Positions 364-15,957 of a stretch of DNA of 26,723 nt are shown piece after piece; within the stretch, counting starts at the first letter, position 1; each line of letters starts with the position of its first letter. Where the stretch lies: the IMG/VR virus record IMGVR_UViG_3300042544_001444, positions 1 to 26,723 of that record, one strand, 5' to 3'. A program made the position numbers and the translations under genes. Source of the stretch: a virus. Below the pieces are notes generated by a model, which searched no databases, was not told the origin of the DNA, and saw only the letters and a list, made by a program, of their open reading frames with translations.

Positions 364-882
364 ATGATACAAATTTTAAAAAACGTTTTAGATCACGAAA
401 CAAAAATTAAATTAGATAAAATCTGCGATAATTTTGAAAATGAAAATTACGATAAGATAGATTATAAACTAGAAAATCATTATGTGAGATTAATAATTGA
501 TAACTCAATATTGTTAGAATATTTAAATAATTGTAAACGACTTTTAAATGAAGTTTTACCATATAACGACATAAAAAATATAAATTTTGAAGATACGACA
601 TCTTGTATAAACAAAGTAACAACCGAAACAAATAAAAACGATGAATATCATTTTGATATATCGTATTTAACCGTGGTAACATACTTAAATAACGATTTTG
701 AAGGTGGCGAATTTTTATATAAAGAAGGAACAAGTAAAATCGAAATTAAACCAGAAAAAAACATGACATTGGTGATGAATAATAGGTTATTACACAAAGT
801 TATGCCTGTTAGTGATGGAATACGATTTAGCTTAATTACATTTTTTCAACTAAAAGAAAAAAAAGACAAAACTTTAATGTAA
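364..882 (+). CDS. 2OG-Fe(II) oxygenase (prolyl 4-hydroxylase-like)
   Basis: The 172-aa protein has the facial triad of the 2-oxoglutarate/Fe(II) dioxygenase superfamily. The sequence HFD supplies H96 and D98, H144 lies in LLHKVMPV, and R154 in GIRFSLITFF is the expected 2OG carboxylate ligand. The segment FEGGEFLY between the first His/Asp pair and the distal His is typical of P4H-like members. The length fits a single-domain enzyme. These enzymes hydroxylate a substrate while oxidising 2-oxoglutarate to succinate. In phages the usual candidates are proteins, lipids or sugars, and nothing here picks one. It sits between the radical-SAM-like fragment and an SGNH hydrolase on the same strand with short gaps, at the start of the glycan-modification region. 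Confidence 0.85.
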   Translation: MIQILKNVLDHETKIKLDKICDNFENENYDKIDYKLENHYVRLIIDNSILLEYLNNCKRLLNEVLPYNDIKNINFEDTTSCINKVTTETNKNDEYHFDISYLTVVTYLNNDFEGGEFLYKEGTSKIEIKPEKNMTLVMNNRLLHKVMPVSDGIRFSLITFFQLKEKKDKTLM

Positions 883-898
883 TTTAAATTAGAACAAT

Positions 899-1693
899 AT
901 GACACCATTAAAATATTGGAATACGGATAATTTTGAGATATCAACGTATAAATTTCATTTATCGGATAAAATGAATAATTTTTATACCACATCTGGGTCA
1001 GACAATACTGGTTTATGTACATACACATATAATTCTTTAGGATTTAGAGGCGAAGAACCAACTAAAGAGGGATTTAAAGTAATGTGCATCGGTGATTCGA
1101 ATACTGAAGGTGTTGGGGTAAACGATAACGAAACGTGGCCCGCGCAATTTACAAAACTAATATCGAACGGGATAAATCACAATTTTGGAATGGGAGGTAG
1201 GAGCAATGATTATATTTGTAGATGTTTATTAACTTATTATGATGTGATTAAACCGGATTTAGTTTTAATTATGTACACATCACCACATAGAAGGGAAATT
1301 TTTACAAAAGACGGAGGCATTGAACCATTTATACCAACCTCCTCTTGGGGATATTTATCGGACACTGAAGATGGAAAAAAAATACAATCATATAAAACAG
1401 AGTTACAAAACGATAATGAAGATTTTGTAAATTGGTATAAAAACCATTTATTAATAAAATATTTTTTAGAAACAAAAAAATGTAATTGGTTATGGAATGG
1501 ATGGATGATGCCATCAATTGTTTATAATGAATCAAATAGATTTGATGGTAATTATAAGACGTCGTTTGTTGATTTTGGCGTTGATGGAGTGCATCCCGGA
1601 CCAAAACATAATTTATTATATTCAAAAGAATTATTTAATCATATTTACGAAAATTTTAGAGGTTATTTACCTAAAGATTTGATAATTGAATGA
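899..1693 (+). CDS. SGNH/GDSL-type hydrolase
   Basis: The 264-aa protein has the SGNH blocks in order. Block I is CIGDSNTEGVG with the probable nucleophile S67. A Gly/Asn region NFGMGGRSND lies near residues 95-104. The C-terminal DGVH (D229, H232) supplies the catalytic Asp and His. Members are esterases, deacetylases or O-acyltransferase partners, often acting on sugars. An N-terminal stretch of about 60 residues (NSLGFRGEEP) precedes block I, as in many sugar-cluster SGNH proteins. There is no signal peptide, so it probably acts in the cytoplasm or as a virion component. It is followed by a 44-bp gap that holds a promoter-like sequence and then the large glycosyltransferase fusion. It is one of three SGNH-like genes in the window. 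The substrate is unknown. Confidence 0.85.
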   Translation: MTPLKYWNTDNFEISTYKFHLSDKMNNFYTTSGSDNTGLCTYTYNSLGFRGEEPTKEGFKVMCIGDSNTEGVGVNDNETWPAQFTKLISNGINHNFGMGGRSNDYICRCLLTYYDVIKPDLVLIMYTSPHRREIFTKDGGIEPFIPTSSWGYLSDTEDGKKIQSYKTELQNDNEDFVNWYKNHLLIKYFLETKKCNWLWNGWMMPSIVYNESNRFDGNYKTSFVDFGVDGVHPGPKHNLLYSKELFNHIYENFRGYLPKDLIIE

Positions 1694-1737: not shown

Positions 1738-4461
1738 ATGAAAATACTTGCTCACACATCATTTATTGGTAAGACGGGATATGCAAATCATGCAAAATCT
1801 TTTTTTTGTGCCCTAAACAAATACCATATTGTAAAGGTAAGAAATCTAACTATTGGAGATAGTTGGGATGGTATGAATGATACTCCACATGATGGAGAAC
1901 CATATATGACTGATGAAATGAAGGATATGTTAATTCTTCAGACATTATTTAATGCGGATAAAACGAGATCAGATTATCCTATGTATGGATATAAGAACGA
2001 CTTTATTCCCGACGTACATATCGTATTAGCGGAAACAAACAATTACTATTTCTACGAAAACTATGAAGGTTATAAGATAGCGTACAATGTTTGGGAATCA
2101 ACACGTTACCCCGATAATTTCTTCCAACGATTATCCTATTTCGATGAGGTTTGGGTACCAACGCAATGGCAATTCGATTGTTTAGTTGAACAAGGATATC
2201 CAGCACATAAAATATCAATAGTACCTGAAGGTGTGGATGTTGAAACATTTAAACCGTTAGCTAAAATACCCAAAAAAGATAAATTTAGATTTTTATATTT
2301 TGGTAGATGGGATTATAGAAAAGGAACTACGGAAGTATTAAAAGCTTTTGGTGAAGTATTCTCTGGTAGAACGGATGTTGAAATGATCGCATCGGTAGAA
2401 AACCCATATCCATATGACGGTCTGAATACAACAGAAGAAAGAGTTGAGTTCCATAAGATAAACACTGAGAATATAAAGTTTATCAAGTTCACACCAAGAG
2501 AAGAATATATAAAGTATCTTCAAGAAGGTGATGTCTTTGTATCATGTGCTCGTAGTGAAGGATGGAACTTACCATTAATTGAAGCTATGGCTTGCGGAAC
2601 CCCCTCAATTTATTCAGATTGGGGTGGCCAATTAGAATTCGCAGAAGGTAAAGGTGTACCTGTTAAGATAGATTATTTAAGACCAGCAAATATAGAACAT
2701 AAAGATTTTCCTGGTGAATATTGTGAACCTGATTGGAACAATTTAGGGGAACAAATGTTAAATGTTTTTAACGACTATAAACGTTTTAAATCATTTGCAA
2801 AAGAAGAGGCAAAAGAAATACATGAAGACTTTAATTGGGATACCGTTGCAAAAACGGCATGTAAGGTTTTAGATAATCGATTTGACGATTTTGCATTTAT
2901 AACAACCGGAAACATTGGTTATATGCCAGTGATCGAGGATTTAGTAAAATCTTTATTAGAGTTTTCCAAACGTAAAATTATAGTATATGGTATTGATTGT
3001 GAAGTACCATTTGATTACCCAAATGTAATTAAAAGGACCATTACAACGCCAAAAATATCTGAACATGATAAATGGTACTGGAAACAATGGGCGTGTATTG
3101 AATCTTTAAATGAAGGATTTGAGAACTATGTTTGGATGGACGGAGATGTGGTTGTTAATCATAATGTTGATAACATTAAAAATCACTTCAATGAAATAGA
3201 AAATTACCCAATATCAGATATACACGTACAAGAAGAATTTTTTGGTTGGTACGATAATGGAAATAAATCACAATTATTTAACGAACAAGTTGCGAATGAG
3301 TGGGGAGTACAAAAACAACAACCATACATGCATGTTTGTATGTACATATTCAATAAAGAATGTAAATGGTGGTTTGAGGAAATTGTAAACCATTATGTTT
3401 CACTTATGGAAACCAATCCAAATGATTATAAACGTTTATATCTCTGGAATGATGAGGGTATTGATAATGTAATGAGGTGGAAATATAATTTTAAAAAACA
3501 CTTACCACTATCAAATTTTGACACTTCTTCTTATGATGGTGATGATGGGATGACAAATGAAACACAACATCATTTCTTAAAGTTTTGGAATGAAGAAGGT
3601 CCACAGAACTTTAATAGAATATTTGGATATCAAGCAATACCAAAAGATAAGAATGAAATTATTTATTTCCACGGTAACAAAAATGCGCAAATGTCTAATT
3701 TCATGGTTGATTTTATTAAGATGAAACGTGATAGTAGTTTTTATAAATCGGAACAATTTTATACTGACATTTATAAGTTAGAAAACCTGGGTGACATTAA
3801 AGGTGTTTTAGGTGGAACAATTGAAATTGCAAATAAATACGGATGGGCAAGGGCAATTTATCATGAAATTTTTAACCTATTAGATTATTACAAAGATAGA
3901 AACGTTAAACAAATACATGAAGGGGACATTGTTGTAGATTTGGGTGGTAATATGGGTATTTTTAATAGATGGGCTTATAGTCAAGGAGCGAGTAAAGTAA
4001 TTTCATTTGAACCGGACAGAAGATACTTTAAATTACTTTCATTAAATGCCGATCCTCGCTCAGTTATATTCAATGCCGCGGCGGCCCATGAAATTGGTGA
4101 GCTTAATTTATACGAAAGCAATCACTTGGGAGGATCAAATGTTTTTGGTATTGAAGGTCAGGAAGGTTACAGTGTAAGAACATATACTTTAAATTATCTT
4201 TTTGAAAGTGGGTTGATTGATCATATTGATTTTCTTAAGGTGGACATTGAAGGTGCAGAACATGCAGCGTTTGCTGGTATCAGCGACGAGAATTTACAAA
4301 AAGTAAAAACCATCGCAATGGAATATCACCATAGTCATTTCAATCATGATGAGGAACTTAGGATAAACTTTATTAATAGAATGAATGGGTTAGGGTTCAA
4401 TTCGTACCTATTGTACATGGGCGACAATAATTCTTTACAAATGATATATTTCTGGAGATGA
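1738..4461 (+). CDS. Three-domain fusion: GT4-like glycosyltransferase, DxD glycosyltransferase, FkbM methyltransferase
   Basis: This 907-aa protein joins three enzymes. Residues 1 to about 390 are a GT-B retaining glycosyltransferase (GT4/GT1-like), with IVPEGVDVETF, LYFGRWDYRKG and the E-x7-E motif E274-E282 in SEGWNLPLIEAMACGTP. Residues of about 395-670 look like a GT-A domain, with D468-G469-D470 in VWMDGDVVV as the metal-binding DxD. Residues of about 690-907 are an FkbM-family SAM-dependent methyltransferase, with DLGGNMG (734-740), FEPD, and KVDIEGAE (834-841). It would add two sugars and O-methylate a hydroxyl, making it a compact glycan-assembly machine. Donor sugars cannot be read from sequence. 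The stop overlaps the next methyltransferase start by 4 bp, so translation is probably coupled. The middle domain is the least certain. Confidence 0.88.
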   Translation: MKILAHTSFIGKTGYANHAKSFFCALNKYHIVKVRNLTIGDSWDGMNDTPHDGEPYMTDEMKDMLILQTLFNADKTRSDYPMYGYKNDFIPDVHIVLAETNNYYFYENYEGYKIAYNVWESTRYPDNFFQRLSYFDEVWVPTQWQFDCLVEQGYPAHKISIVPEGVDVETFKPLAKIPKKDKFRFLYFGRWDYRKGTTEVLKAFGEVFSGRTDVEMIASVENPYPYDGLNTTEERVEFHKINTENIKFIKFTPREEYIKYLQEGDVFVSCARSEGWNLPLIEAMACGTPSIYSDWGGQLEFAEGKGVPVKIDYLRPANIEHKDFPGEYCEPDWNNLGEQMLNVFNDYKRFKSFAKEEAKEIHEDFNWDTVAKTACKVLDNRFDDFAFITTGNIGYMPVIEDLVKSLLEFSKRKIIVYGIDCEVPFDYPNVIKRTITTPKISEHDKWYWKQWACIESLNEGFENYVWMDGDVVVNHNVDNIKNHFNEIENYPISDIHVQEEFFGWYDNGNKSQLFNEQVANEWGVQKQQPYMHVCMYIFNKECKWWFEEIVNHYVSLMETNPNDYKRLYLWNDEGIDNVMRWKYNFKKHLPLSNFDTSSYDGDDGMTNETQHHFLKFWNEEGPQNFNRIFGYQAIPKDKNEIIYFHGNKNAQMSNFMVDFIKMKRDSSFYKSEQFYTDIYKLENLGDIKGVLGGTIEIANKYGWARAIYHEIFNLLDYYKDRNVKQIHEGDIVVDLGGNMGIFNRWAYSQGASKVISFEPDRRYFKLLSLNADPRSVIFNAAAAHEIGELNLYESNHLGGSNVFGIEGQEGYSVRTYTLNYLFESGLIDHIDFLKVDIEGAEHAAFAGISDENLQKVKTIAMEYHHSHFNHDEELRINFINRMNGLGFNSYLLYMGDNNSLQMIYFWR

Positions 4462-5129
4462 GTAGCAATTTAGAAAAGTTAGCAATTAAATACGGAACAG
4501 ATAAAAGTTCTGAGGTACATAACTATTGCGTGAAGTATGAAAAATATTTACCGTTCAATAGGTACGATAAATTGAATATTTTAGAGATCGGTGTTTTAAA
4601 TGGTAAATCATTAAAAACGTGGCAGGAATATTATTATAAATCAAATATAATTGGTATTGATATAAATCCCGATTGCGAACAATACAATGATAGAGATAAT
4701 AGAGTACATGTTGAAATAGGATCTCAAGACGATAATGTTTTTTTAAATGATATAATGAGAAAATATGGACCATTTGATATGATATTAGACGATGGTTCAC
4801 ACATGAACGAACATGTTATTTATTCCTTCGAACATTTATTTGAATCGGTTAAATCGGGTGGTATATATGTAGTCGAAGATGTTTCAACATCATATTGGTC
4901 ATGGTATGGTGGAGGTTTAAATGACCCTAAGAGTATGATGGAATATTTTAAGAGATTAGCTGATGACGTCAATTTTAGAGGAATTGAAAATTTAGATAAT
5001 CAAGAAGCTGTATGGTGGAGAAGAGAAGATTTTTTAATACCATACACAAATAAAGTTTTACCCGATTGTAGAACCGATATAGAATCAATAACTTTCCTAA
5101 ATGGAATAATTTTAATAAGAAAAAGATAA
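4458..5129 (+). CDS. Class I SAM-dependent methyltransferase (MycE/TylF-like O-methyltransferase type)
   Basis: The 223-aa protein begins with IKYGTDKSSEVHNYCVKYE, resembling macrolide sugar O-methyltransferases in which this segment precedes the SAM fold. LEIGVLNG (42-49) is the SAM-binding loop. GIDI (66-69) carries the acidic residue expected to bind ribose. DDGSH (111-115) and VVEDV (138-142) match metal-dependent sugar O-methyltransferases. It overlaps the upstream fusion by 4 bp and shares its last base with the next gene's ATG, so all three are probably translationally coupled. The context suggests it methylates a sugar added by the neighbouring glycosyltransferases. The 180-aa protein at 13719-14261 has the same motifs at almost identical residue numbers and is probably a paralogue. 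Confidence 0.85.
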   Translation: MSSNLEKLAIKYGTDKSSEVHNYCVKYEKYLPFNRYDKLNILEIGVLNGKSLKTWQEYYYKSNIIGIDINPDCEQYNDRDNRVHVEIGSQDDNVFLNDIMRKYGPFDMILDDGSHMNEHVIYSFEHLFESVKSGGIYVVEDVSTSYWSWYGGGLNDPKSMMEYFKRLADDVNFRGIENLDNQEAVWWRREDFLIPYTNKVLPDCRTDIESITFLNGIILIRKR

Positions 5130-7246
5130 TGGGATATACACAATTTAATGATGATGTTTTTGTAGTTGACTGCTGGCCTGATAACAAAGAAAAAGAAAAT
5201 GTTTTAAAAAAATTACTTACAAGTTTAAAAGTTTATAATTGTCCTATTATATTATGTGGGCATTACCCAGTTTCACCCGATATACAGGTGTTAGCCGATT
5301 ATTACCTATATGATGGTAATAATGACATCCTATTAGAGAAAGATTTTGAAGAGTACGGTATTAATAGTGATAGATGGACAGACATGAGTACATATAAGAT
5401 AACCAACAAAGTTGATTTTCATCATGACTATGCGATTTGGTTAACGATGAAAAATGCTTTTAATCTTGCTAAACAATTAGGTAAGCAATATATCCATTTC
5501 TTAGAGTACGATAACCTACCAGACGAAATTCAATATCGTCAATCATTCATGGAATATGTTAGAAGTAATGACGCTGTTGTTTATGAATATTCAGAAGGAT
5601 CAACAAAAGAAAATAACCCATACAGTTCGGCGTATATCTTTTCAATTAAGACAGATGTTGCACTTAAAATGATTAGTCTTATTAATAGCAAAGAAGAATA
5701 CTTTAAAGGTAAACCTGATAGCTGGCAATTAGAAAAACAACTATTTCAATCTATTAAGAAAGTAACAAATAGTGTATTTGTTAGTAAGTATATACCTAAT
5801 GATAATGAACTTAATATTTTTGCGGTATGGAATAGGAATGGTATCTTAAAAAATGGCGCACGTTTACAAACATATTTAGGTGTTGATAATGCTGGACAAT
5901 TATTCGTTCATTTTATTTCCGGATTTTCGGAAAAACCAGCAGACAAAGATTATCTCATTGAAATTAACTACGCAGGTTATAAAAAGTTTCATACAGTAAA
6001 AAAGGGCGAGTATAAATTAGAAAGATTAGGCCAATACGAAAAGGGTTTATCTGTTGAGGTATATTATCAAGGAAAGGAAATTTTCAGTCAAGAACTAAAA
6101 GATGAAATGGGTGAGTTTAGAAGAAAGAATAAACTATCAAGAAAAAATGTTAACGCTAATAGACGAACCAATATTCATTTTGTAGATGGTCCATTTGTTG
6201 AAATACTAGAAGACGGGGATTATTTGTATAATGTTCAATTTATCAATAAAAGAAATAATAAGGTTGAGCTTGATTTTAACTTAAAGAGTAATCATTGGGT
6301 TAGATCTTCTAAAAAATATTTTGTCGATTGGTTAATAAAAATTAAAGGTGTCGATAATGATTTTTATCAAGAATATAATATAGATTTAACAAACAAACGC
6401 GTAATGATATGTTTTGAATCTAAATCATTGGGTGACAACCTAGCTTGGATGGATTACGTTGAGAAATTTAGAGTAGATAATAAGTGTGAAGTATTATGCT
6501 CGTCATTCCAAATAGATTTATTCAAAGATCAATATCCAAATATTCAATTTATAACACCTGGTACTAACGTTGATAACATATATGCATTATATCGTTTAGG
6601 GCTATTCTATAATGATAAACGTGAAATTGACTATTCAAGACACGAAACCGACCCTAAAAAAGAACCATTGATGAAAGTAGCGTCAGATATCTTGGGTTTA
6701 ACATATAAAGAATTAAAACCTAAATTGCCTAAATTGGGTAAAAAGAAAAAGAAACTTGTATCTATAGCAATACATTCCACATCACAATGTAAGTATTGGA
6801 ATAATCCAACGGGTTGGCAAGAAGTCGTAGATCATTATAAAGGTAAAGGATACGAAGTTAGACTCTTATCAAGAGAAGAAGATGGATATATGGGAAACAA
6901 ACATCCTAAAGGAATTACGATCCAACCTAAAAGCACCCTTAAAGAATTGATTAAAGTTTTACAAGAATCTGAATTGTTCATAGGAATTAGTAGCGGTTTA
7001 AGTTGGTTAGCTTGGGCGTCAGGAACTCCTACGGTTATTATTTCAGGGTTTACCGACGTTGATTTAGAACCAACAGAAGGAGTTACTCGTATAATTAATA
7101 AAGAAGTGTGTAATAGTTGTTGGTCAAACCATGAATTTGATCCAGGAGATTGGAATTGGTGTCCAATTAATAAGGGAACAAAAGAACAATTTATATGTTC
7201 AAAGGTCATTACAGGTCAAGACGTTATAAATAAAATAGAAATATAA
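5129..7246 (+). CDS. Glycosyltransferase fused to a BAHT/TibC-type autotransporter O-heptosyltransferase domain
   Basis: The 705-aa protein has an N-terminal region (to about 230) resembling a GT-A-like transferase, with YIHFLEYDN near residues 120-128. A linker follows. From about residue 345 it matches the autotransporter strand-loop-strand O-heptosyltransferase family (Aah/TibC): NIHFVDGPFVEIL, then FESKSLGDNLAWMDYVE, HSTSQCKYWNNPTGWQEV, LSREEDGYMGNK and GISSGLSWLAWASGTP. The C-terminal cysteines C661, C664, C678 and C690 (VCNSCW, NWCP, FICS) match those that bind iron in this family. Known members transfer heptose from ADP-heptose to serines of repetitive autotransporters such as TibA. 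The next gene, 71 bp away, encodes a Gly/Ser/Thr-repeat fibre. Targeting of that fibre is inferred. The donor may not be heptose, and the N-terminal domain is loosely assigned. Confidence 0.88.
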   Translation: MGYTQFNDDVFVVDCWPDNKEKENVLKKLLTSLKVYNCPIILCGHYPVSPDIQVLADYYLYDGNNDILLEKDFEEYGINSDRWTDMSTYKITNKVDFHHDYAIWLTMKNAFNLAKQLGKQYIHFLEYDNLPDEIQYRQSFMEYVRSNDAVVYEYSEGSTKENNPYSSAYIFSIKTDVALKMISLINSKEEYFKGKPDSWQLEKQLFQSIKKVTNSVFVSKYIPNDNELNIFAVWNRNGILKNGARLQTYLGVDNAGQLFVHFISGFSEKPADKDYLIEINYAGYKKFHTVKKGEYKLERLGQYEKGLSVEVYYQGKEIFSQELKDEMGEFRRKNKLSRKNVNANRRTNIHFVDGPFVEILEDGDYLYNVQFINKRNNKVELDFNLKSNHWVRSSKKYFVDWLIKIKGVDNDFYQEYNIDLTNKRVMICFESKSLGDNLAWMDYVEKFRVDNKCEVLCSSFQIDLFKDQYPNIQFITPGTNVDNIYALYRLGLFYNDKREIDYSRHETDPKKEPLMKVASDILGLTYKELKPKLPKLGKKKKKLVSIAIHSTSQCKYWNNPTGWQEVVDHYKGKGYEVRLLSREEDGYMGNKHPKGITIQPKSTLKELIKVLQESELFIGISSGLSWLAWASGTPTVIISGFTDVDLEPTEGVTRIINKEVCNSCWSNHEFDPGDWNWCPINKGTKEQFICSKVITGQDVINKIEI

Positions 7247-7287
7247 GGTATTTTTCATAGATTTTATTCACAAAGATAAAAAATCAA

Positions 7288-7296
7288 GTATTTATA
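7288..7296 (+). promoter_or_regulatory. GTATTTATA element upstream of the fibre gene
   Basis: GTATTTATA lies 21 bp before the fibre ATG. The same 9-mer occurs at 8870-8878 before the next virion-like gene. Related forms precede two minus-strand micro-genes: ATATTTATA at 19047-19055 and GTATTTATT at 22187-22195. TATTTATA is the reverse complement of the T4 late promoter core TATAAATA, so its orientation and role are uncertain. Confidence 0.35.
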
Positions 7297-7317
7297 TGAG
7301 TATAACAAAATAACCAT

Positions 7318-8826
7318 ATGAAAATATTTGACGCAAACATCTCGGGATCACTTAACGTATCGGCTTCAGCCCACATTTTTGGCGATCTTACAGTAGACGG
7401 AGTAATAAACGCAACGATTAGTGGTACAACATCAAACGCTATTTCATCATCATTTGCAACTAATGCAAATCTTTTGGATGGTAAAGATTCCACCGAATTC
7501 GCGATAACAGGTAGTAACACATTCAAAGCGAACCAAACAATAACAGGTTCTCTTTATGTTACCGGTGACGTAGTAATTAACGGAACATCATATAATGCCG
7601 CAAGTTCTGGCTCTTCTGGAACTTCAGGATCTAACGGTTCTTCTGGAACCTCAGGATCTAACGGTTCTTCTGGTACTTCAGGTAGTTCTGGATCTAGCGG
7701 TTCTTCAGGAACTTCAGGTAGTTCTGGGTCTAATGGTTCTTCAGGTACTTCAGGTAGTTCTGGATCTAGCGGTTCTTCAGGAACTTCAGGTTCAAGTGGT
7801 TCATCTGGCACATCAGGATCTAGCGGATCAAGCGGTTCGTCAGGTACTTCAGTATCAGTATCGGGAACGAGTAACGTTCTTGTTAAATTTACATCAACAT
7901 CAACAGTTGGTAACTCAACAATTACTGACGATGGTACGACAGTTACAATTGGTGGTAATTTAACCGTTAACGGTACAACAACTACAGTCAATTCAAATAC
8001 GGTTAATATTGGAGATAACATTATAATTCTTAATTCAGACGAAACAAGTACCCCATCACAAAATGCCGGTATTGAAGTAGAAAGAGGAACTTCAACAAAT
8101 GCAAGTTTAATATGGGATGAAACGGCGGATGTATGGGAAGCGGGTTTAGCGGGTGCTGAAGTGGAAATTGTTACAGTTAGTGGTGGTCAAACACTTACAA
8201 ACAAAACAATAAACGCATCTCAATTAGTTGATTCATCAGTAACAAACGCTAAATTAGCTAACTCATCAGTTACAGTAACAGCAGGAACAGGTATGAGCGG
8301 CGGAGGCGCTGTTGCTTTAGGTTCTTCGGTAACATTAACCAACGCAGGTGTAACTTCTGCAGTTGCAGGTACGGGAGTTGGTGTTAGTGCTGGAACAGGT
8401 GCGGTAACAATATCGATCGGACAAGCGGTTGCAACGTCGTCAAACGTTCAATTCAATGCTTTGGGTGTTGGAACGGCAGCGGGAGCAACGGCAGGTCTTA
8501 TTAGGGCAACAAATGACGTTATTGCTTATTTTTCTTCTGATGAAAGATTAAAAGAAAATTTTGAAGTGATTACAAATCCATTAGAAAAGCTACAACAAAT
8601 TAATGGTTATTCCTTTGATTGGGTACCAATGGAAGGTATACATGAGAATGAAGGTCACGATATCGGAGTAAAAGCGCAAGAAATTGAAGTTGTTTTACCC
8701 GAATTGGTAACAACAAGAGAAAATGGTTATAAGGCTGTGAAGTATGATAAGTTAGTTGCTTTATTAATTGAAACTAATAAAGAGTTACTAAATAGAATAG
8801 AGGCTTTAGAAGCTAAAATAAAATAA
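7318..8826 (+). CDS. Phage tail fibre with Gly/Ser/Thr repeats and C-terminal S74 chaperone domain
   Basis: This 502-aa structural protein starts with short beta-rich segments, including NLLDGKDSTEFAITG, common in phage fibres. Residues 96-178 consist almost only of GSSGTSG-type repeats. Residues of about 185-270 (GNLTVNGTTTTVNS, NAGIEVERGTSTNAS) match a segment recurrent in T4-like marine phage structural proteins. The C-terminus from about residue 400 is an intramolecular chaperone of peptidase family S74: SSDERLKEN holds the expected catalytic S407 and K412, followed by IGVKAQEIEVVLPELV, VKYDKLVALLIE and a coiled-coil end. In this family the chaperone drives trimerisation and then cleaves itself off. 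The fibre would sit at the particle surface and bind the host. The repeat offers dozens of Ser/Thr acceptors for the adjacent BAHT-like enzyme. Confidence 0.9.
   Translation: MKIFDANISGSLNVSASAHIFGDLTVDGVINATISGTTSNAISSSFATNANLLDGKDSTEFAITGSNTFKANQTITGSLYVTGDVVINGTSYNAASSGSSGTSGSNGSSGTSGSNGSSGTSGSSGSSGSSGTSGSSGSNGSSGTSGSSGSSGSSGTSGSSGSSGTSGSSGSSGSSGTSVSVSGTSNVLVKFTSTSTVGNSTITDDGTTVTIGGNLTVNGTTTTVNSNTVNIGDNIIILNSDETSTPSQNAGIEVERGTSTNASLIWDETADVWEAGLAGAEVEIVTVSGGQTLTNKTINASQLVDSSVTNAKLANSSVTVTAGTGMSGGGAVALGSSVTLTNAGVTSAVAGTGVGVSAGTGAVTISIGQAVATSSNVQFNALGVGTAAGATAGLIRATNDVIAYFSSDERLKENFEVITNPLEKLQQINGYSFDWVPMEGIHENEGHDIGVKAQEIEVVLPELVTTRENGYKAVKYDKLVALLIETNKELLNRIEALEAKIK
7603..7851 (+). repeat. 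In-frame Gly/Ser/Thr/Asn repeat tract of the fibre
   Basis: The tract encodes G-x-x triplets with x nearly always Ser, Thr or Asn. A perfect 48-bp direct repeat occurs at 7672-7719 and 7744-7791, offset by 72 bp (24 codons). A 23-bp repeat occurs at 7624-7646 and 7651-7673, offset by 27 bp. All offsets are multiples of three, so recombination would change fibre length without a frameshift. The tract lacks the prolines of true collagen. Confidence 0.9.
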
Positions 8827-9163: not shown

Positions 9164-9607
9164 ATGAATCTTACGTATAAAAAGCACCCCTCAAAATACG
9201 AATTACAGTACGTTAAATGGAACGGAATTAACTTTGATAGAGAAAGACTCATCGAGTTCATGAAACGTCTTAAATTGACGTATTTTTTATCATTTATACC
9301 TTATTACAGGAAAGAATATCAAATATTATATCAGATACTTAATCTATATGATCAAGTTCGTATCAAAGGTCTTTTAAAGGGTGATGAGAATATAGTAAGA
9401 ATGAGCTTTATAGAAAAGTGGGCGAGAATTGCTGCTGTTGATATTCTCCTAACAAACACATATTCAAGACTTACTTATACAACAATTAGTAATCTCCCAA
9501 TTAAAGACTTCCAGCTTTTATCTAAAAGAGTCGAGGAATTAGTAACTGCAGGTAGAAACCTAACATATCAAAGTAACACTATAACAGACAGTACACCAGG
9601 ATTATGA
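9164..9607 (+). CDS. Conserved-looking hypothetical protein, 147 aa
   Basis: I do not recognise this protein. It is basic in its N-terminal third (YKKHPSKYELQYVKWNG, MKRLKLTYF). The middle and end look mostly helical, with IEKWARIAAVDILLTNTYSRL and FQLLSKRVEELVTAGRNL. No signal peptide or clear transmembrane helix is seen; FLSFIPYY is too short. It is the first gene after a promoter-like sequence and its stop overlaps the ATG of the following glycosyltransferase by 4 bp (ATGA). Coupled translation is likely, so a role linked to that enzyme or to the neighbouring virion genes is possible. Confidence 0.7.
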   Translation: MNLTYKKHPSKYELQYVKWNGINFDRERLIEFMKRLKLTYFLSFIPYYRKEYQILYQILNLYDQVRIKGLLKGDENIVRMSFIEKWARIAAVDILLTNTYSRLTYTTISNLPIKDFQLLSKRVEELVTAGRNLTYQSNTITDSTPGL

Positions 9608-10239
9608 GTAAATCAATTAACAACAGTTCAATGTGGGATGTAAAACCACTAAAATTATCAATATTAGTACCAACAAGAGATACAGTTCATAGTCAATTTG
9701 CTTACTGTTTAACTCAGTTATTTAATCTAACTAGAGAATCAGGAATTGATACTTATTTATTCTTTGATTCAAGTACAATATTATTAAATCAAAGAAACAA
9801 TTTAATAAAGAAAGCCAAGGAAGTTAATTCCGATTATGTACTTTGGTTAGATAGCGATATGATGTTTCCACCGACCACCGCATTACGTCTTTTAGAGCAC
9901 AATAAGGACATTGTTGCGTGTAACTACATGAGACGCTCAAAACCTCTTAAAACGGTCGCGTATGCCGATTTAAATGATTGGGATAGTTGGTTACCGATGG
10001 AAATACAAGAAGACCTTGTTAAAGTACAGGGAGTAGGTATGGGATGTATGTTAATGAAATTAGATACGTTCGATAAATTAGAAAAACCATATTTTGAATT
10101 TAGATATAAAGAAAACACCGAAGATTACTTCGGTGAAGACTTTATTTTATTGGGTAAGTTAAGAGAATTGGGTTATGATGTGTTTATCGATACGTATTTG
10201 AGTATGATGGTTAAACACGTCGGTAATTACGCCTTTTGA
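9604..10239 (+). CDS. GT-A-fold glycosyltransferase (family 2-like)
   Basis: The 211-aa protein opens with LSILVPTRDTVHSQFAYCL, a typical nucleotide-sugar-binding start. NQRNNLIKKA (62-71) is followed by VLWLDSDMMFPP, where D83-S84-D85 is the DxD metal and donor-phosphate site. GVGMGCMLMK and YFGEDFILLGKLRELGYDV follow, with the Glu-Asp pair commonly seen at the catalytic base position of this group. The length matches a single GT-A domain without extra modules. The substrate is unknown. It is the last plus-strand gene of this block, and its stop runs 13 bp into the stop end of the convergent minus-strand operon. Confidence 0.8.
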   Translation: MSKSINNSSMWDVKPLKLSILVPTRDTVHSQFAYCLTQLFNLTRESGIDTYLFFDSSTILLNQRNNLIKKAKEVNSDYVLWLDSDMMFPPTTALRLLEHNKDIVACNYMRRSKPLKTVAYADLNDWDSWLPMEIQEDLVKVQGVGMGCMLMKLDTFDKLEKPYFEFRYKENTEDYFGEDFILLGKLRELGYDVFIDTYLSMMVKHVGNYAF

Positions 10240-11339
10240 TCCTTATCGATAATTAACACCGTTAAGTTACCATTTTCATAAACACCCGGACCGTAGTCAT
10301 CAAGAGATACTCTCAATGCATTGATCATATTAAAGTCATCCTGATTTAAATCGTCAGTGACAAAAACTTTAATGTCAACATTATTTATATCTTCAAATTT
10401 AGATTTTAAATCATAGCGAGTAAATGCTTGCTCTCTTTCAACATATTCTGTTGGATATTCATCAATTTCAATTTTATCGAAAAATGGTTCTAACAATTCA
10501 ATGTGTTTATTACTAGACAATTTAACACCAACCATTTTTTTGGTGTAATTAAAATTATCAGTTGTTTGATAATCCATAGCATTAAACATCGGAATACTAA
10601 TACCCCACTTTCTAATAAAATTTCTAATTGAATGTACTTCAATTGCTCCGCGAACGTCTTTCATTTCATCACTGAATCTTGATGTCTGAGAAACAAAATG
10701 ATATGTAATTGCCGAATCACAAGTTTTCAATTCATATCCTTTAAGTTTTGCGCGAATTAAAAAATCATCATCTTCACAGAAACAAGGAACAAAACTAAAC
10801 CCATCAAATCCACCAAGGTCCACAAATGTTTTCTTATAGGCTGACATGAAGAAAACAGCACCATCGTAAAGATTATTACCATCTTTCCATTGTTGGACGT
10901 AGTTCTCAAAATTGACTTGATCAAAGTTATCAAATCCCGTACCTAAGTCTAACAATACTTTACCTGGTCTTTGATGTCCTTTAAAAACTGGAGGTTCTAT
11001 TGTGGTATAGGATAGAATCATATTCTCAGTTAATAATCTTTCTAATGACTCTAAAAATCCTTCACCAATAACCATGTCGTTATGAATAAGAACAATTTTC
11101 TCAGTGTCGACAAGATCAATACCTGCGTTATATGTTTCAGAAAAAGTTAAACGAGTATCGTCATGAAAGAATGATAAGTTATCGTCTTCTAAAGATTCTA
11201 ACCATTCCTTTGTTCCGTCGCTTGATCCACCACTACTAATAACTAATGGTGCTTCGGGATATAACTTACGTAGTCTTTTATAACATTCTGTTGTTAAATC
11301 TAATTTATTGTAAACTGCCAATACAAAGCTTATATTCAT
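10227..11339 (-). CDS. Glycosyltransferase family 2
   Basis: The 370-aa protein has an N-terminal GT-A domain, ISFVLAVYNKLDLTTECYKRL and then VISSGGSSDGTKEWL, the characteristic GT2 opening. H86-N87-D88-M89 takes the DxD position. PCFCEDDDFLIRAKLKGYEL is the usual acidic catalytic segment, preceded by GAVFFMSAYKKTFVDLGGFD. About 100 C-terminal residues beyond the core (YTKKMVGVKLSSNKH onward) are unassigned and could bind an acceptor or partner. It is the last gene of the minus-strand operon, 12 bp after the preceding gene. Its 3' end overlaps the convergent plus-strand gene by 13 bp, and no hairpin terminator is visible there. Donor and acceptor sugars are unknown. Confidence 0.85.
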   Translation of the reverse strand: MNISFVLAVYNKLDLTTECYKRLRKLYPEAPLVISSGGSSDGTKEWLESLEDDNLSFFHDDTRLTFSETYNAGIDLVDTEKIVLIHNDMVIGEGFLESLERLLTENMILSYTTIEPPVFKGHQRPGKVLLDLGTGFDNFDQVNFENYVQQWKDGNNLYDGAVFFMSAYKKTFVDLGGFDGFSFVPCFCEDDDFLIRAKLKGYELKTCDSAITYHFVSQTSRFSDEMKDVRGAIEVHSIRNFIRKWGISIPMFNAMDYQTTDNFNYTKKMVGVKLSSNKHIELLEPFFDKIEIDEYPTEYVEREQAFTRYDLKSKFEDINNVDIKVFVTDDLNQDDFNMINALRVSLDDYGPGVYENGNLTVLIIDKDQKA

Positions 11340-11351
11340 TTTTTTTATTTT

Positions 11352-11927
11352 TTAATTATGTACGTATAATGGTTTAATTATTTTTTTTATTATTCCTTGA
11401 GGATATCTTCGAAGATACTCTTCAACGAATAGACCGTCCGATTGTTCATTAGTGATATCTAATTTAATTTTTTTAGCTAAATCTGTTCTAGACATAAAAT
11501 TACCAATATCAATCATTCCCAATTTAGGAATTGAGTTTAATATAATATACTGATTATTTAACCAATTGTGTACTAAATTACAATAAACAAAGTGAGTATT
11601 ATTATCCGCAAGATTTAAAAACTCTTCTACAAAAATCGGCATATAATAATTATCGTCACCAGTCATAACGACCCACTCTTCTGTTGCATTTTGTAACCCA
11701 TAGTTTCTAGGAGTATGACCCCAATCTTTGTGAGGCCCATTCAATTCGGTAAATCTAATCCTATCATCATTAGAAAAATAATCCTTAACCTTATCGTATC
11801 CATCGTATACGGCGTCAGCAACAACGTGTATTTTCCAGTTAGATGACGTCTGTGAAAATATAGAACTAATTACACCCATTAATTGGTGCGGTCTATTATA
11901 TGTCGGTATTATAAATTCAATATTCAT
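11352..11927 (-). CDS. Small glycosyltransferase family 2 protein
   Basis: The 191-aa protein starts with EFIIPTYNRPHQLMGVISSI, a standard GT2 start, and has HTPRNYGLQNATEEWVVMTGDDNYY, in which G90-D91-D92-N93 sits at the DxD position after the family's RNxG segment. The acidic QSDGLFVEEYLRRYP segment near the end may supply the catalytic base. It is a bare catalytic domain with no membrane segment, so it is probably soluble. It starts 3 bp after the stop of the GT4-like gene and precedes the last operon gene by 12 bp. The sugar specificity cannot be read. Confidence 0.83.
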   Translation of the reverse strand: MNIEFIIPTYNRPHQLMGVISSIFSQTSSNWKIHVVADAVYDGYDKVKDYFSNDDRIRFTELNGPHKDWGHTPRNYGLQNATEEWVVMTGDDNYYMPIFVEEFLNLADNNTHFVYCNLVHNWLNNQYIILNSIPKLGMIDIGNFMSRTDLAKKIKLDITNEQSDGLFVEEYLRRYPQGIIKKIIKPLYVHN

Positions 11928-11930
11928 ATT

Positions 11931-12716
11931 CTAAAATTTTAAAACCTTTTTCCAAAGGTCAAAAATTTCGTCATTAGTTAACGATGAAACTTCGTGAAGT
12001 GTTTGGTCACAACCAAAAAATTTAGTATTAGTGTAATGACATTCATCTTTCACCAAACAAGCGACCTCACCAATTGATGAGTGATACACCCTCCCAAAAC
12101 TATCATACATCTCTTGTTTTGAATTTGTAAACCCAACGAATTCAACATATGGATGATTTTTATATTTCTTTACATTTTTGTTATAATATTGGTCTTCATT
12201 TACTTTACCATAAATTAAAATTTTAGTACATCCATCCTCCAATGCTCTTTCAATAGAACGGTGCGTTTGTTTTCGTTCTTCGACCGTACCAATAATACCA
12301 GCAACTAAATCTAAGTGTGCTTTATCTTTTGGTTGTAGTGGTTCTTTTGGATTTGGTATTGTAGTATATGGTCCGTTATATCTTGAATGATATTTTCTAT
12401 GTTCTTCATGGCTAAAAACTAAATTGTCCCAATATTGAGGGATATCAGCAACTTCAAACCACCATTTTTCATGACAAGCTAACACAACATTTTTAACATT
12501 TGGTCTTTTTTCTAGCTTGTAAAAATGTGTTAATAAAATATCGCTCTTTTCTAATTTTAAATTTTTTAATGAATCTGATTTACATTTGTCTAAATGAAAT
12601 TGATTAGGACCATAGAAGACCGTGTCGACACCTCTTTCGTTAAACATGTTTGTTAGATTTATTAATATGGTTGTTGAACCACCTTCTCCTGAATAACCTG
12701 AAATTATCTTTACCAT
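11931..12716 (-). CDS. GT-B-type glycosyltransferase (GT4-like, divergent)
   Basis: The 261-aa protein begins with KIISGYSGEGGSTTILINL, a glycine-rich acceptor-side loop like that of GT4 enzymes. The second half has VAGIIGTVEERKQTHRSI and then YVEFVGFTNSKQEMYDSF. An E-x7-E pair, E217 and E225, lies in IGEVACLVKDEC at the place where GT4 enzymes hold their donor-phosphate and catalytic glutamates. At 261 aa it is shorter than typical 350-420-aa GT4 proteins, and the N-terminal Rossmann domain appears trimmed. The start is 3 bp after the epimerase stop. It may be a minimal retaining glycosyltransferase. If the shortened N-lobe were non-functional, it could be a degenerate partner protein. Confidence 0.68.
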   Translation of the reverse strand: MVKIISGYSGEGGSTTILINLTNMFNERGVDTVFYGPNQFHLDKCKSDSLKNLKLEKSDILLTHFYKLEKRPNVKNVVLACHEKWWFEVADIPQYWDNLVFSHEEHRKYHSRYNGPYTTIPNPKEPLQPKDKAHLDLVAGIIGTVEERKQTHRSIERALEDGCTKILIYGKVNEDQYYNKNVKKYKNHPYVEFVGFTNSKQEMYDSFGRVYHSSIGEVACLVKDECHYTNTKFFGCDQTLHEVSSLTNDEIFDLWKKVLKF

Positions 12717-12719
12717 AAA

Positions 12720-13712
12720 TTATTTTTTCCAAAATGAATATATACCCTTATCAAGTTCATATGATTCCCAAACGAATCTATCTCTCTTTGGTTGTTTCTG
12801 TGCCCATTCCCACATATGAGTTAAACCTTCAGTTAAATTTGTTTTGTGTTCAAATCCTAATATATCTACCGATTTTTGCCAAGTTGGTATTGAATGTTTT
12901 ACTTCATGTCTTTGTTCTTTGTAGACAACTTCTCCACCGCCGATAACATTACGTATGATTTGATTTGCCTCTAATATTGAGTATTCTTTGATACCTCCTA
13001 AATTGATTATCTGTTTTGAAGCTTCAGGTAAAAACGACGATTTCCATAATGGTTCTAAACTGTCATCAATATAACTAAACGCTCTTGTTTGTAATCCATC
13101 ACCAAAAATTGTCATAGGTTCACCATTCAAATGTTGAAACATCCAAATGCCCAACACATTTCTATATTTATCCCATATGTTCTGTTTAAGACCGTAAACA
13201 TTATGAGGTCTAATAATACACCAATCAAGTCCATGTTGTTCACCAGCGATTTGTATATCCATCTCACAACCATATTTTGCAACACCGTATGGATCAATTG
13301 GTTTAGGTATTTGATTTTCATTAAAAATTCCGCCATCACCATGCCCGTAAACCGCTAAAGTTGAAGTGAATATTAATCTCTTAACGTTATGTTTAATACA
13401 TTCGGTAATAATACGTGATGTTGCAACTAAATTGTTTTGATAGTTATATGTTCTAATGAATGGTGACAAACCTTCCGCGGCGTATGCGGCAAAATGATAT
13501 ACGTAATCAAATTGGTGCTTTTCAAAACATTCAGTTATGTTACCGTTAACTAAATTCATTTCCCACAATTCCACTTTAGAATTAACATTTTCTTTATAAC
13601 CTCCGCTCATATCATCAATACCAACAATCTTAACGTCAGAATGATTTTCAATTATGTAGTCAGCAAGTCTCGATCCCAATAAACCGGCAACACCGGTAAT
13701 TAATATTTTCAT
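12720..13712 (-). CDS. NAD-dependent sugar epimerase/dehydratase (UDP-glucose 4-epimerase-like)
   Basis: The 330-aa protein is an extended short-chain dehydrogenase/reductase. The N-terminal ITGVAGLLGSRLADYI contains the GxxGxxG NAD-binding loop (7-13), and D33-D34 follows the second strand. TSTLAVYG (116-123) and Y142-G-V-A-K146 form the catalytic Thr/Ser-Tyr-Lys set. IRPHNVYG and FGDGLQTRAFSYIDD are signature segments of nucleotide-sugar epimerases, as is the usual 300-340-aa length. It would interconvert a nucleotide sugar for the neighbouring glycosyltransferases, with UDP-hexose the most common substrate. Specificity is uncertain. It lies between methyltransferase and glycosyltransferase genes with gaps of 6 and 3 bp. 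It is the only recognisable sugar-nucleotide enzyme in the window, so most donors must come from the host. Confidence 0.92.
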   Translation of the reverse strand: MKILITGVAGLLGSRLADYIIENHSDVKIVGIDDMSGGYKENVNSKVELWEMNLVNGNITECFEKHQFDYVYHFAAYAAEGLSPFIRTYNYQNNLVATSRIITECIKHNVKRLIFTSTLAVYGHGDGGIFNENQIPKPIDPYGVAKYGCEMDIQIAGEQHGLDWCIIRPHNVYGLKQNIWDKYRNVLGIWMFQHLNGEPMTIFGDGLQTRAFSYIDDSLEPLWKSSFLPEASKQIINLGGIKEYSILEANQIIRNVIGGGEVVYKEQRHEVKHSIPTWQKSVDILGFEHKTNLTEGLTHMWEWAQKQPKRDRFVWESYELDKGIYSFWKK

Positions 13713-13718
13713 ATTTCT

Positions 13719-14261
13719 TTAAAATTTATATACAGCTAAGACATCATCAACTCTATTTTTTATGTGTCTGTTATCAATTATTTCAATGTTATTATGTAAT
13801 TCCGTTAATTTATCAATTGATAAATCAATGTTATTTACATCCTCAATTATATAAATTCCATTTGGATTCATTTTATCTTTTAATATGTTAAAAGAATTTA
13901 TTTGATCATCTATTCTATGACTACCATCATCAATAATAACGTCAAACTTTAAATCACTTAACTCAGTTAAAATCTCTTCAGAGGTAGCGTCACCTATGAT
14001 GATATTATATTTGTTTTCATTAATTAAATCTTTAATATATTGATCAGTAATATCAATACCATATACTGTTGAATTAATAAAATACTCATTCCACATTTTT
14101 AAAGATTCTCCTTGACATATCCCAATCTCTAAAACTACCGAGTTTTCTCTATAGGGTCCTAATAATTTCTCATATTCATTTATATATGTATGCGCAGTAC
14201 CTTTATCACCGTGACCTTCGGGTGATTGATAATTTTCATATATTTCATTTAGTGATTTCAT
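13719..14261 (-). CDS. Class I SAM-dependent methyltransferase, paralogue of 4458-5129
   Basis: The 180-aa protein has a short lead-in with GDKGTAHTYINEYEKLL, then LEIGICQGESLKMW (SAM loop at 44-51), YGIDI (ribose-binding Asp), FDVIIDDGSH (111-115) and GIYIIEDV (135-142). The motif order and near-identical residue numbers match the 223-aa methyltransferase on the other strand, and both resemble macrocin/mycinamicin-type sugar O-methyltransferases. It lacks the C-terminal tryptophan-rich extension of the longer one. The start overlaps the preceding methyltransferase's stop by 4 bp, suggesting coupled translation. Probable function: O-methylation of a sugar in the phage-directed glycan. Confidence 0.83.
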   Translation of the reverse strand: MKSLNEIYENYQSPEGHGDKGTAHTYINEYEKLLGPYRENSVVLEIGICQGESLKMWNEYFINSTVYGIDITDQYIKDLINENKYNIIIGDATSEEILTELSDLKFDVIIDDGSHRIDDQINSFNILKDKMNPNGIYIIEDVNNIDLSIDKLTELHNNIEIIDNRHIKNRVDDVLAVYKF

Positions 14262-14872
14262 ACTTTGTAATAATTTTCTTTTAAATCATTTTCGTTAACA
14301 TATTCTCTCTTTTTCATAATCACTTGATAACCATTATGTACAATATCTAAATATTTGTGATAACCATGATAAAATGCGTCAGCCCCAGTTTTTACTTGTA
14401 AATATTGTTCTTGTTCAAGTCCACCACCATAATCGTCAAATATAATATAACCATTATTTTTCAAACAGTAAAATGCATTTACCGCATCTTCTAAAACATA
14501 TTTTGACATGTGGTTACCATCTATATAAACAAAGTCTAAAAATTCTTTTGTTTTACCATCATGTTGAAAAGTTTTAAAACTATCGGCCGATTCACCTAAA
14601 ATATATGTTACCTTATCTTTATATGGTTTAATGTTATTTTCGATAAATTCATTTGTGTTAATATCCATAATGTAATGATGTGAACCATCTATTTTACAAA
14701 AGTTTTCTAATATGTAAACAGATGATCCGCCATATAGAGCACCAATTTCTAAACATACTCTTGGTTCGTCACCATAATTAGGTAAAAAATGTTCCCACGC
14801 ATCTACATGATTTAAAAAGAAATAACGTTCTCCTTCGGGATATTTAAAATGTTCTGGGTATTGATAACTCAT
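14258..14872 (-). CDS. Class I SAM-dependent methyltransferase (Methyltransf_24-like)
   Basis: The 204-aa protein has VCLEIGALYGGSSVYILENF, with the SAM-binding loop at 41-50, then HHYIMDI (acidic residue for ribose), FLDFVYIDGNHMSKYVLEDA with Y116-I-D-G-N-H121, and GYIIFDDYG (141-149). YIDG-x-H and FDDY are hallmarks of the Methyltransf_24/CmcI-like group, where acidic residues and His bind a divalent metal for O-methylation. It is less similar to the next gene than that gene is to the distant plus-strand copy, so it probably acts on a different position or sugar. It overlaps both neighbours by 4 bp, inside the long minus-strand operon. Confidence 0.83.
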   Translation of the reverse strand: MSYQYPEHFKYPEGERYFFLNHVDAWEHFLPNYGDEPRVCLEIGALYGGSSVYILENFCKIDGSHHYIMDINTNEFIENNIKPYKDKVTYILGESADSFKTFQHDGKTKEFLDFVYIDGNHMSKYVLEDAVNAFYCLKNNGYIIFDDYGGGLEQEQYLQVKTGADAFYHGYHKYLDIVHNGYQVIMKKREYVNENDLKENYYKV

Positions 14873-15489
14873 AATGTATTGTAATAATTGTTTTGTTTTT
14901 CTTGACGTTCTATTGTCTTATGGTGTTGTATACAATATTCCTCATCTAAAGGTAATGACGAAAACTTTTGACCACCTATTATTCTTTCATGTACTTTACC
15001 ATACCAAGTCATACCTTTTCTATAAACTCTACCTTGAGCGTCAGGAAAATTTATCCAACCATTCTCGTTAACCTTCCACCCCCACTTATTTATATGTTCT
15101 TGAGTAATTCCATTAACGGTATTAATACGAGGAACAAAAATCAGATCAACCTTCGGATTTAATTCCAATATTGTTGACAGGTTTTGTACCATATATTCAC
15201 TGATCATTTCATCCGCATCTAATTGGTAGATATAGTCACCAGTACAATACTCATTCAATTTATTTTTCCAATCGGCAAAATTACCATCAAATCCAAAACC
15301 TCTCCATGTTTGCACGTTAGGTTTAATGTTATATGGTAAAAGAAAATCTAATATTTCTGAATTTCCATTCTTTTCATCATATAAAATAACAATCTCATCC
15401 TCAATTCTTTTGTGTTCCAATAGAAACGGGACCAATTTTTTTATTTCTTCTATTTCATTACAAACTGTAATTGCAAAACTTATTTTCAT
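14869..15489 (-). CDS. Glycosyltransferase family 2 (WaaE/KdtX-like)
   Basis: The 206-aa protein starts with ISFAITVCNEIEEIKKLVPFL, then FADWKNKLNEYCTGDYIYQLDADE, where D91-A92-D93-E94 is the DxD metal site. GRVYRKGMTWYGKVHERI resembles the C-terminal signature of the WaaE/KdtX beta-glucosyltransferase-like GT2 group involved in LPS-core sugars. The C-terminus ends in a His/Gln-rich segment (CIQHHKTIERQEKQNNYYN) typical of that group. The size is that of a compact catalytic domain. It overlaps both the upstream small gene and the downstream methyltransferase by 4 bp. The acceptor is unknown; similarity to LPS-core enzymes suggests a heptose- or hexose-containing acceptor but does not show one. 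Confidence 0.8.
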   Translation of the reverse strand: MKISFAITVCNEIEEIKKLVPFLLEHKRIEDEIVILYDEKNGNSEILDFLLPYNIKPNVQTWRGFGFDGNFADWKNKLNEYCTGDYIYQLDADEMISEYMVQNLSTILELNPKVDLIFVPRINTVNGITQEHINKWGWKVNENGWINFPDAQGRVYRKGMTWYGKVHERIIGGQKFSSLPLDEEYCIQHHKTIERQEKQNNYYNTL

Positions 15490-15725
15490 GCTCTTTGTCC
15501 TCCGTTTATTCTTATTGTTAACTCATTTATTATTTCATTATCGATTTCTTCAGCAATTTCTCTAGACAATAATCTTGTTAATTCAGCTTCGGCATTAATT
15601 GCGTAAACTTCAGTCAAGTCATCAACCAACTCAGGTCTCCATTGAGCACGTAGTGTCCTAACAATGTTTTGAATACCTTCAGATTGAATTGTTATACCAT
15701 GAAAAAATTTGAATTCTCTAACCAT
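15486..15725 (-). CDS. Small protein resembling the conserved core of T4 gp23-type major capsid proteins
   Basis: I place the start at the ATG at 15725 (79 aa), which overlaps the upstream stop by 8 bp. A longer frame from 15770 would overlap by 53 bp. The protein reads VRTLRAQWRPELVDDLTEV followed by YAINAEAELTRLLSREIA and EEIDNEIINEL. In T4-like capsid proteins a block of the form LKA-x-x-T-x-ELAQDLKAVHGLDAEAEL-x-x-ILS-x-EI-x-x-EI-x-RE has the same order and spacing. The rest of the capsid protein is missing, and the gene ends soon after this block (RINGGQRA). It may be a captured capsid segment, a capsid-interacting decoy or chaperone, or an independent helical protein. Its place among glycosylation genes is unexpected. 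The resemblance is from memory. Confidence 0.7.
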   Translation of the reverse strand: MVREFKFFHGITIQSEGIQNIVRTLRAQWRPELVDDLTEVYAINAEAELTRLLSREIAEEIDNEIINELTIRINGGQRA

Positions 15726-15957
15726 TTTGTCTTTCTCTTGCAAATAATTTAAAAATTCTACCGTTATCATTAAATGTCATTTCCGCATTACTCGTTGGAC
15801 TCAAACGAATACTACATTCATTAGGGCCTGATGCGAACATAACTGGTTCGTTATCACCAAATTGAAAACAAAACTCAACATTTTCCACTTCAAACCTATG
15901 AGGTGTAAAATATAATTTTGGTGTTTCATCACCTTTAAAAAATTTGAAGTTCATCAT
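15718..15957 (-). CDS. Hypothetical 79-aa protein, translationally coupled in the glycosylation operon
   Basis: I do not recognise it. It reads as a small beta-rich protein, with NFKFFKGDETPKLYFTPHRF, then FCFQFGDNEPVMFASGP and CSIRLSPTSNAEMTFNDNG, without membrane or signal segments. ATGATG at the start overlaps the upstream GT4 stop by 4 bp, and the stop overlaps the gp23-like gene by 8 bp. The three genes are therefore almost certainly co-translated. FKFF near the N-terminus also occurs in the next protein (VREFKFFHG). The two may share a small N-terminal motif or a common partner. It could be a virion or scaffold-like component placed with the gp23-like gene. Confidence 0.7.
   Translation of the reverse strand: MMNFKFFKGDETPKLYFTPHRFEVENVEFCFQFGDNEPVMFASGPNECSIRLSPTSNAEMTFNDNGRIFKLFARERQNG

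Follow-up and report, generated by a model that had tools for sequence, protein, structure and literature searches.

Among described enzymes, the closest to the one reported here are the BAHT proteins TibC of ETEC and AAH of DAEC. Autotransporter heptosyltransferases of this class use ADP-heptose, are dodecameric, and have a TIGR04415 autotransporter encoded nearby. BAHT genes often precede autotransporters, and the members of family TIGR04414 whose substrate is known modify the autotransporters of the producing cell (PMC4358343). In TibC, Arg286 touches the adenine, and its replacement by alanine abolishes or largely diminishes activity; the word "phage" is absent from that paper (PMC4358343). 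Virion glycosylation by phage-encoded glycosyltransferases has been described in mycobacteriophages, where the glycans lie at the capsid and tail tube C-termini (Freeman et al. 2023, as cited in PMC12619734). No account of a phage fibre or collagen-like repeat being modified by a BAHT-type enzyme was found in the open-licence papers searched, in agreement with a first-pass annotation of this DNA, which knew of no such glycosylation of a phage fibre.

Here, we analyzed a linear record of 26,723 bases from a large aquatic phage (IMGVR_UViG_3300042544_001444, positions 1 to 26,723; referred to below as the window), in which a BAHT gene lies beside a gene for a tail fibre with a collagen-like stalk. 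Judging from sequence, we consider it likely that the phage enzyme O-glycosylates the Gly-X-Y stalk of the adjacent fibre. Beyond the earlier reading, the analysis brought out a BAHT branch, shared by phages and bacteria, that is linked to the repeat; an operon of several enzymes; and a concrete doubt as to which sugar is transferred.

Gene layout and the fibre repeat

A megablast search of the whole window against known phages gave no match, and no tRNA genes were found in it. Promoter and terminator scans of the window were near shuffled background, and the T4-type late promoter TATAAATA occurred at chance frequency. The features that bear on the proposed glycan system are as follows.

364–882, plus strand: 2OG-Fe(II) oxygenase (Pfam, 35.5 bits); membership in the glycan system uncertain
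899–1693, plus strand: GDSL/SGNH-like protein, possibly a glycan acyl-modifying enzyme (weak, sub-cut-off Pfam match)
1738–4461, plus strand: GT4 fused to an FkbM-type methyltransferase, 907 aa, proposed to extend and O-methylate the glycan (Pfam/NCBIfam)
4458–5129, plus strand: Methyltransf_24-type methyltransferase, 223 aa (Pfam)
5129–7246, plus strand: probable GT-A + BAHT enzyme, 705 aa
6164–7240, plus strand: BAHT domain proper, from the TibC alignment and a check in 29 relatives and 109 domains
7318–8826, plus strand: tail fibre, 502 aa, proposed acceptor (Pfam Collagen and Peptidase_S74; PHROG tail fibre and baseplate families)
7609–7851, plus strand: fibre repeat (fibre residues 98–178), 27 Gly-X-Y triplets, proposed glycosylation sites

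The Methyltransf_24-type gene overlaps the GT4-FkbM and BAHT genes by 1 to 4 bases, with start and stop codons overlapping, and translational coupling is likely. A GDSL/SGNH-like gene is present in only part of the relatives. A second glycan gene cluster lies at 9604–18574, mostly on the minus strand and convergent with the fibre operon; it encodes GT2-type and GT4-type glycosyltransferases, a nucleotide-sugar epimerase, and methyltransferases, and is kept in close relatives. At 22243–24144 a 633-aa protein carries a PcfJ-like domain (Pfam, 48.6 bits), and related ORFs occur in one phage group (L035–L050).

As the first-pass annotation had stated, a fibre with a Gly/Ser/Thr repeat is encoded 71 bp downstream of the enzyme on the same strand. 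It combines a collagen-like stalk with a C-terminal intramolecular chaperone, the Pfam Collagen (47.8 bits) and Peptidase_S74 (55.7 bits) matches both being above their cut-offs. What had been read as a GSSGTSG-type repeat is thus a proline-free Gly-X-Y tract of collagen-like kind: its 27 perfect triplets (GSS ×16, GTS ×8, GSN ×3) hold 43 serines and 8 threonines, or 51 Ser/Thr in 81 residues. Because proline is absent from the tract, the 2OG oxygenase is unlikely to be a prolyl hydroxylase of the stalk.

The 705-aa enzyme

The analysis confirms that the 705-aa protein ends in a complete BAHT/TibC-type GT-B domain (aa ~346–704). Residues 363–704 match positions 27–372 of the 374 in TIGR04414 (hepto_Aah_TibC) at 280–283 bits, above the curated cut-off of 200 bits, and TibC (4RAP) is the sole solved relative found by sequence (phmmer, E = 3.5e-56). 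An AlphaFold2 model of the protein from a 29-sequence alignment (mean pLDDT 85.8) predicts a TibC-like catalytic fold, with a Foldseek match to 4RAP at E = 6e-33, TM 0.81–0.83 over the target, and 34% identity. The full-length BAHT domain that had been read from the letters is thus borne out by profile and by predicted structure; the four cysteines noted with it, C661, C664, C678, and C690, align with the TibC iron ligands Cys339/342/358/370 and would form a putative iron finger.

Active-site residues were named following PMC4358343 and then checked in 29 relatives and 109 domains. The TibC catalytic base Asp110 is kept as Asp436, and the donor contacts Thr226, Lys230, and Trp305 as Thr551, Lys555, and Trp626; Arg286 is replaced by Leu607 and Pro300 by Ser621. 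The donor pocket, a disruption of which the first-pass annotation had taken to speak against its reading, is kept at Thr551, Lys555, and Trp626 but changed at Arg286. Membership among the LPS heptosyltransferases (WaaC/RfaQ) was rejected on much weaker profile and Foldseek matches and on the presence of the iron-finger cysteines. DNA glycosylation was set aside because the nearest relative modifies protein.

Besides the one non-conserved donor residue, the earlier reading overlooked the two coupled upstream glycan genes and a GT-A-like N-terminal domain (aa 1–~240), which a beta-rich linker joins to the BAHT domain. Modelled alone, residues 1–344 reached a pLDDT of 86.7 and a pTM of 0.80, and Foldseek found only distant similarity (best E ~1e-5), to nucleotide-sugar transferases and to enzymes of the GT-A type, alpha-1,3-galactosyltransferase, LH3, COLGALT1, and glycogenin among them. 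Because the modelled residues match GT-A-type folds at this distance, the protein is probably a GT-A + BAHT enzyme.

In the isolated Microcystis phage Mel-JY01 (PP395634), GT4, GT-A, methyltransferase, and BAHT follow one another in a single 1,227-aa polypeptide, with scores against the window of 397 bits (GT4), 58 bits (GT-A), 80 bits (Methyltransf_24-type methyltransferase), and 353 bits (BAHT). Just upstream of the fusion gene lies an 805-aa ORF with a very long Gly-Thr-Ser tract (L080:635–3052). Further fusions of glycosyltransferase and methyltransferase occur in other phages. The fused forms support a single pathway from first sugar through extension to methylation.

The Mel-JY01 annotation lays a minus-strand gene (739–2298) over the plus-strand Gly-Thr-Ser ORF, and its plus-strand gene at 2519–3052 covers only the end of that ORF. 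Two BAHT domains occur in each of four records (L005, L065, L049, and G047), as separate genes or, in L049, within one protein, which may mean that there are two acceptors or that the glycan is built stepwise. In a further record (L472, G061:100501–120500), a 2,940-aa phage ORF with ~812 uninterrupted Ser/Thr-rich Gly-X-Y triplets adjoins a 1,527-aa BAHT fusion, and a GmhA-like gene is also present.

Pairing of enzyme and repeat in phages

An IMG/VR scan gave 105 BAHT loci and an alignment-based scan at least 592. Most close relatives with the fibre gene on the contig share the order GT4_FkbM, methyltransferase, BAHT, and Ser/Thr-rich Gly-X-Y fibre. As a second approach to the pair, loci were gathered via orf147, the gene downstream of the fibre: where BAHT is present, the fibre has the repeat in 18 of 19 loci, many of the orf147-derived loci being near relatives of one another. 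The exception (L667) has BAHT and a fibre without the repeat, and in the two loci whose upstream sequence is visible and holds no BAHT (L679 and L680) the repeat is missing too. The first-pass annotation had proposed looking for the gene pair in related phages, and by both routes it is conserved.

A degenerate DNA pattern matching Gly-Thr-Ser/Gly-Ser-Ser repeats was also used as the sole criterion for choosing viral records. TIGR04414 was found in 18/50 of these and in 16/33 of those of at least 30 kb (one slightly below the family cut-off), whereas BAHT was found in 0/35 records chosen by a Pro-type collagen pattern and in 0/25 chosen by an arbitrary 14-mer ("random" records). Fisher's test of the Gly-Thr-Ser set against the Pro-type collagen set gave p ~8e-7, for control records that may differ from the repeat-chosen set in base composition and habitat. 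When stretches of at most 20 kb were compared within BAHT-positive records, a Ser/Thr-rich Gly-X-Y tract occurred in 13 of 17 around BAHT and in 2 of 20 elsewhere (p = 5e-5), the control stretches being hand-placed rather than formally randomised.

At 60% identity, 20 of the 33 viral BAHT clusters have a Ser/Thr-rich Gly-X-Y ORF within ~8 kb. In several phages other genes separate BAHT from the repeat gene, and one group (L033–L050) has no such repeat within 8 kb of BAHT, with the repeat held elsewhere in records of the group. By these counts from sequence the pairing of enzyme and repeat exceeds chance. The phage contigs are related, so that the counts are not fully independent, and a habitat or host in common could make the link look stronger than it is. 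The canonical TIGR04415 acceptor repeat was absent from the window, its fibre included, and from 39 other BAHT-phage records (0/40).

Bacterial relatives and the BAHT tree

A tree of 107 domains was computed under a quick model from viral representatives and bacterial BAHT loci, the latter being the 80 that scored best for likeness to the phage alignment. It falls into two halves with 100% SH-aLRT. The autotransporter branch comprises 57 bacterial enzymes, near-copies included, and the three large neighbouring ORFs tested there are AIDA-I or Ag43-like, all with the TIGR04415 repeat. The other branch holds all phage enzymes together with bacterial ones. A Ser/Thr-rich Gly-X-Y tract lies within 3 kb in 12 of 18 bacterial loci of the phage-containing branch, some contigs of which may be viral, and a Gly-X-Y tract in none of 50 loci of the autotransporter branch (p = 2.5e-9).

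The bacterial repeat partners are small and appear to carry signal peptides or lipoboxes; they come from Methylobacter luteus and other Methylococcaceae, a Polaromonas MAG, and gammaproteobacterial MAGs. Judged by eye, partners from different groups seem related neither to one another nor to the phage fibre, the repeat apart; because they otherwise appear unrelated, the repeat is, as far as sequence comparison goes, the common denominator of BAHT partners. At seven bacterial loci (L505:6917–7780, L508, L510, L514, L516, L518, and L502), BAHT adjoins genes for small, apparently exported or lipoprotein-like proteins whose collagen-like repeats are of the Gly-Thr-Ser or Gly-Ser-Ser type, some of these proteins having long acidic tails at the end.

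We lean towards the view that a main BAHT branch, found in phages and in bacteria that include methanotrophs, is devoted to collagen-like Gly-Ser/Thr repeats rather than autotransporters, that much of it, without the ADP-reading arginine, may use another nucleotide sugar, and that in phages it works within a multi-enzyme glycan operon, sometimes one polypeptide, for the fibre stalk.

Donor sugar

At the position of TibC Arg286, every sampled autotransporter-branch enzyme has arginine. Much of the phage-containing branch has Ile, Val, Leu, Thr, Met, or Ala there and some of it Arg, and in most phage relatives the residue is Ile, Val, Leu, Thr, or Ala. A GmhA-like gene was detected in 1 of 39 phage records and an HldE-type gene above cut-off likewise in 1 of 39. 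A phage-made heptose donor was rejected as a general rule, heptose-biosynthesis genes being mostly absent from BAHT phages. Host ADP-heptose would be the simplest donor, and a different nucleotide sugar is possible. Because the adenine-contact Arg286, which confers ADP-sugar selectivity, is Leu607 and most of these phages have no detected heptose-nucleotide genes, the transferred sugar may be other than heptose.

Proposed function and alternatives

We propose that the 705-aa enzyme is a two-domain O-glycosyltransferase that would modify serines, and perhaps threonines, of the fibre Gly-X-Y stalk. Its C-terminal BAHT domain would add the first sugar from a host-made nucleotide donor, in the cytoplasm and ahead of virion assembly, and the N-terminal GT-A domain, the GT4-FkbM protein, and the methyltransferase would then elongate and methylate the glycan. 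The operon of GT4-FkbM, methyltransferase, and GT-A + BAHT genes probably extends and methylates the fibre glycan; we infer the repeat as acceptor, the order of steps, their timing, and heptose or a related sugar. Fibre self-glycosylation is the leading reading because of the synteny, the enrichment, the proximity, the split in the tree, and the lack of the canonical acceptor repeat. The first-pass annotation had suggested a phage that glycosylates its own receptor-binding fibre, by an enzyme whose known relatives place heptose: the pairing at its core is upheld by synteny, two control sets, proximity, the tree, and the missing TIGR04415 repeat, and heptose is unsupported, given Leu607 and the few heptose-nucleotide genes in phage records. 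The consequences that it had suggested for adsorption, protease resistance, or immune-like recognition are likewise unsupported.

The enzyme might instead act during infection on the surface of the host, at the LPS core, the O-antigen, or an autotransporter, for example in superinfection exclusion, with the adjacency of the fibre incidental. Modification of the producing cell's own autotransporters by characterized TIGR04414 members (PMC4358343) would fit such a target, as would the many other glycan genes at 9604–18574, which surface or capsule-type modification would lead one to expect. We nevertheless regard it as unlikely: canonical acceptor repeats are missing from BAHT phages, BAHT accompanies the Gly-Thr-Ser repeat across unrelated records and in bacteria whose repeat proteins differ, and the domain, with its iron-finger cysteines and nearest match to TibC, is unlike an LPS-type heptosyltransferase.

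It is improbable that the operon glycosylates the virion at another structural protein or fibre rather than the adjacent Gly-X-Y stalk. The capsid and tail tube of mycobacteriophages are known targets (Freeman et al. 2023, as cited in PMC12619734), BAHT can stand some genes from the repeat gene, and L667 pairs it with a repeat-less fibre, yet the bacterial partners share with the phage fibre the repeat and little else visible, which points to the repeat itself. A habitat or host-lineage effect, by which BAHT and Gly-Thr-Ser fibres would both be common in large AT-rich aquatic phages with no functional link, could arise from related contigs and from possible differences of base composition and habitat in the control sets, but is very improbable given the proximity within one record set, the recurrence of the pairing in bacterial contigs, and the joint absence of BAHT and repeat in L679 and L680.

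If fibre self-glycosylation is true, the Gly-Thr-Ser tail-fibre repeat, common yet unexplained in phages, is a glycosylation scaffold, a family of bacterial protein glycosyltransferases gains a further class of acceptor, and single enzymes become available to place dense O-glycans on collagen-like sequences. Sugar-coated fibres would also alter the understanding of aquatic phage adsorption and environmental stability.

Comparison with known systems

The window enzyme shares with TibC and AAH the family TIGR04414, the predicted catalytic fold, the residues equivalent to Asp110, Thr226, Lys230, and Trp305, the putative Cys4 iron finger, and a gene adjoining one for a repetitive Ser/Thr-rich protein. 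It differs in having Leu for Arg286 and a fused GT-A-like domain, and it belongs to the other main branch of the tree. The partner of TibC and AAH is a strand-loop-strand autotransporter, whereas that of the window enzyme is a collagen-like fibre; of the hallmarks of the autotransporter heptosyltransferase class, the nearby TIGR04415 autotransporter is absent here.

In chlorovirus PBCV-1, glycosyltransferase and methyltransferase domains occur in one polypeptide, as in Mel-JY01. PBCV-1 encodes a glycosyltransferase for a structural protein of its own, the capsid, as proposed for the fibre of the window, but the fold match to PBCV-1 (2P72/2P73) is only distant (E = 9e-4), and catalytic families and acceptor are other ones. 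With mycobacteriophages the proposed system would share phage-encoded modification of virion proteins, at a fibre stalk instead of capsid and tail tube C-termini (Freeman et al. 2023, as cited in PMC12619734); for mycobacteriophages, neither a BAHT-type enzyme nor a collagen-like acceptor turned up in the papers searched. Bacillus BclA and mimivirus collagen are likewise Gly-X-Y collagen-like proteins that carry sugars (PMC8968730), and the passages on them name no BAHT-type enzyme. The mimivirus collagen is hydroxylated as well as glycosylated (PMC8968730), whereas in the window fibre the likely acceptor is serine in the GSS and GTS triplets.
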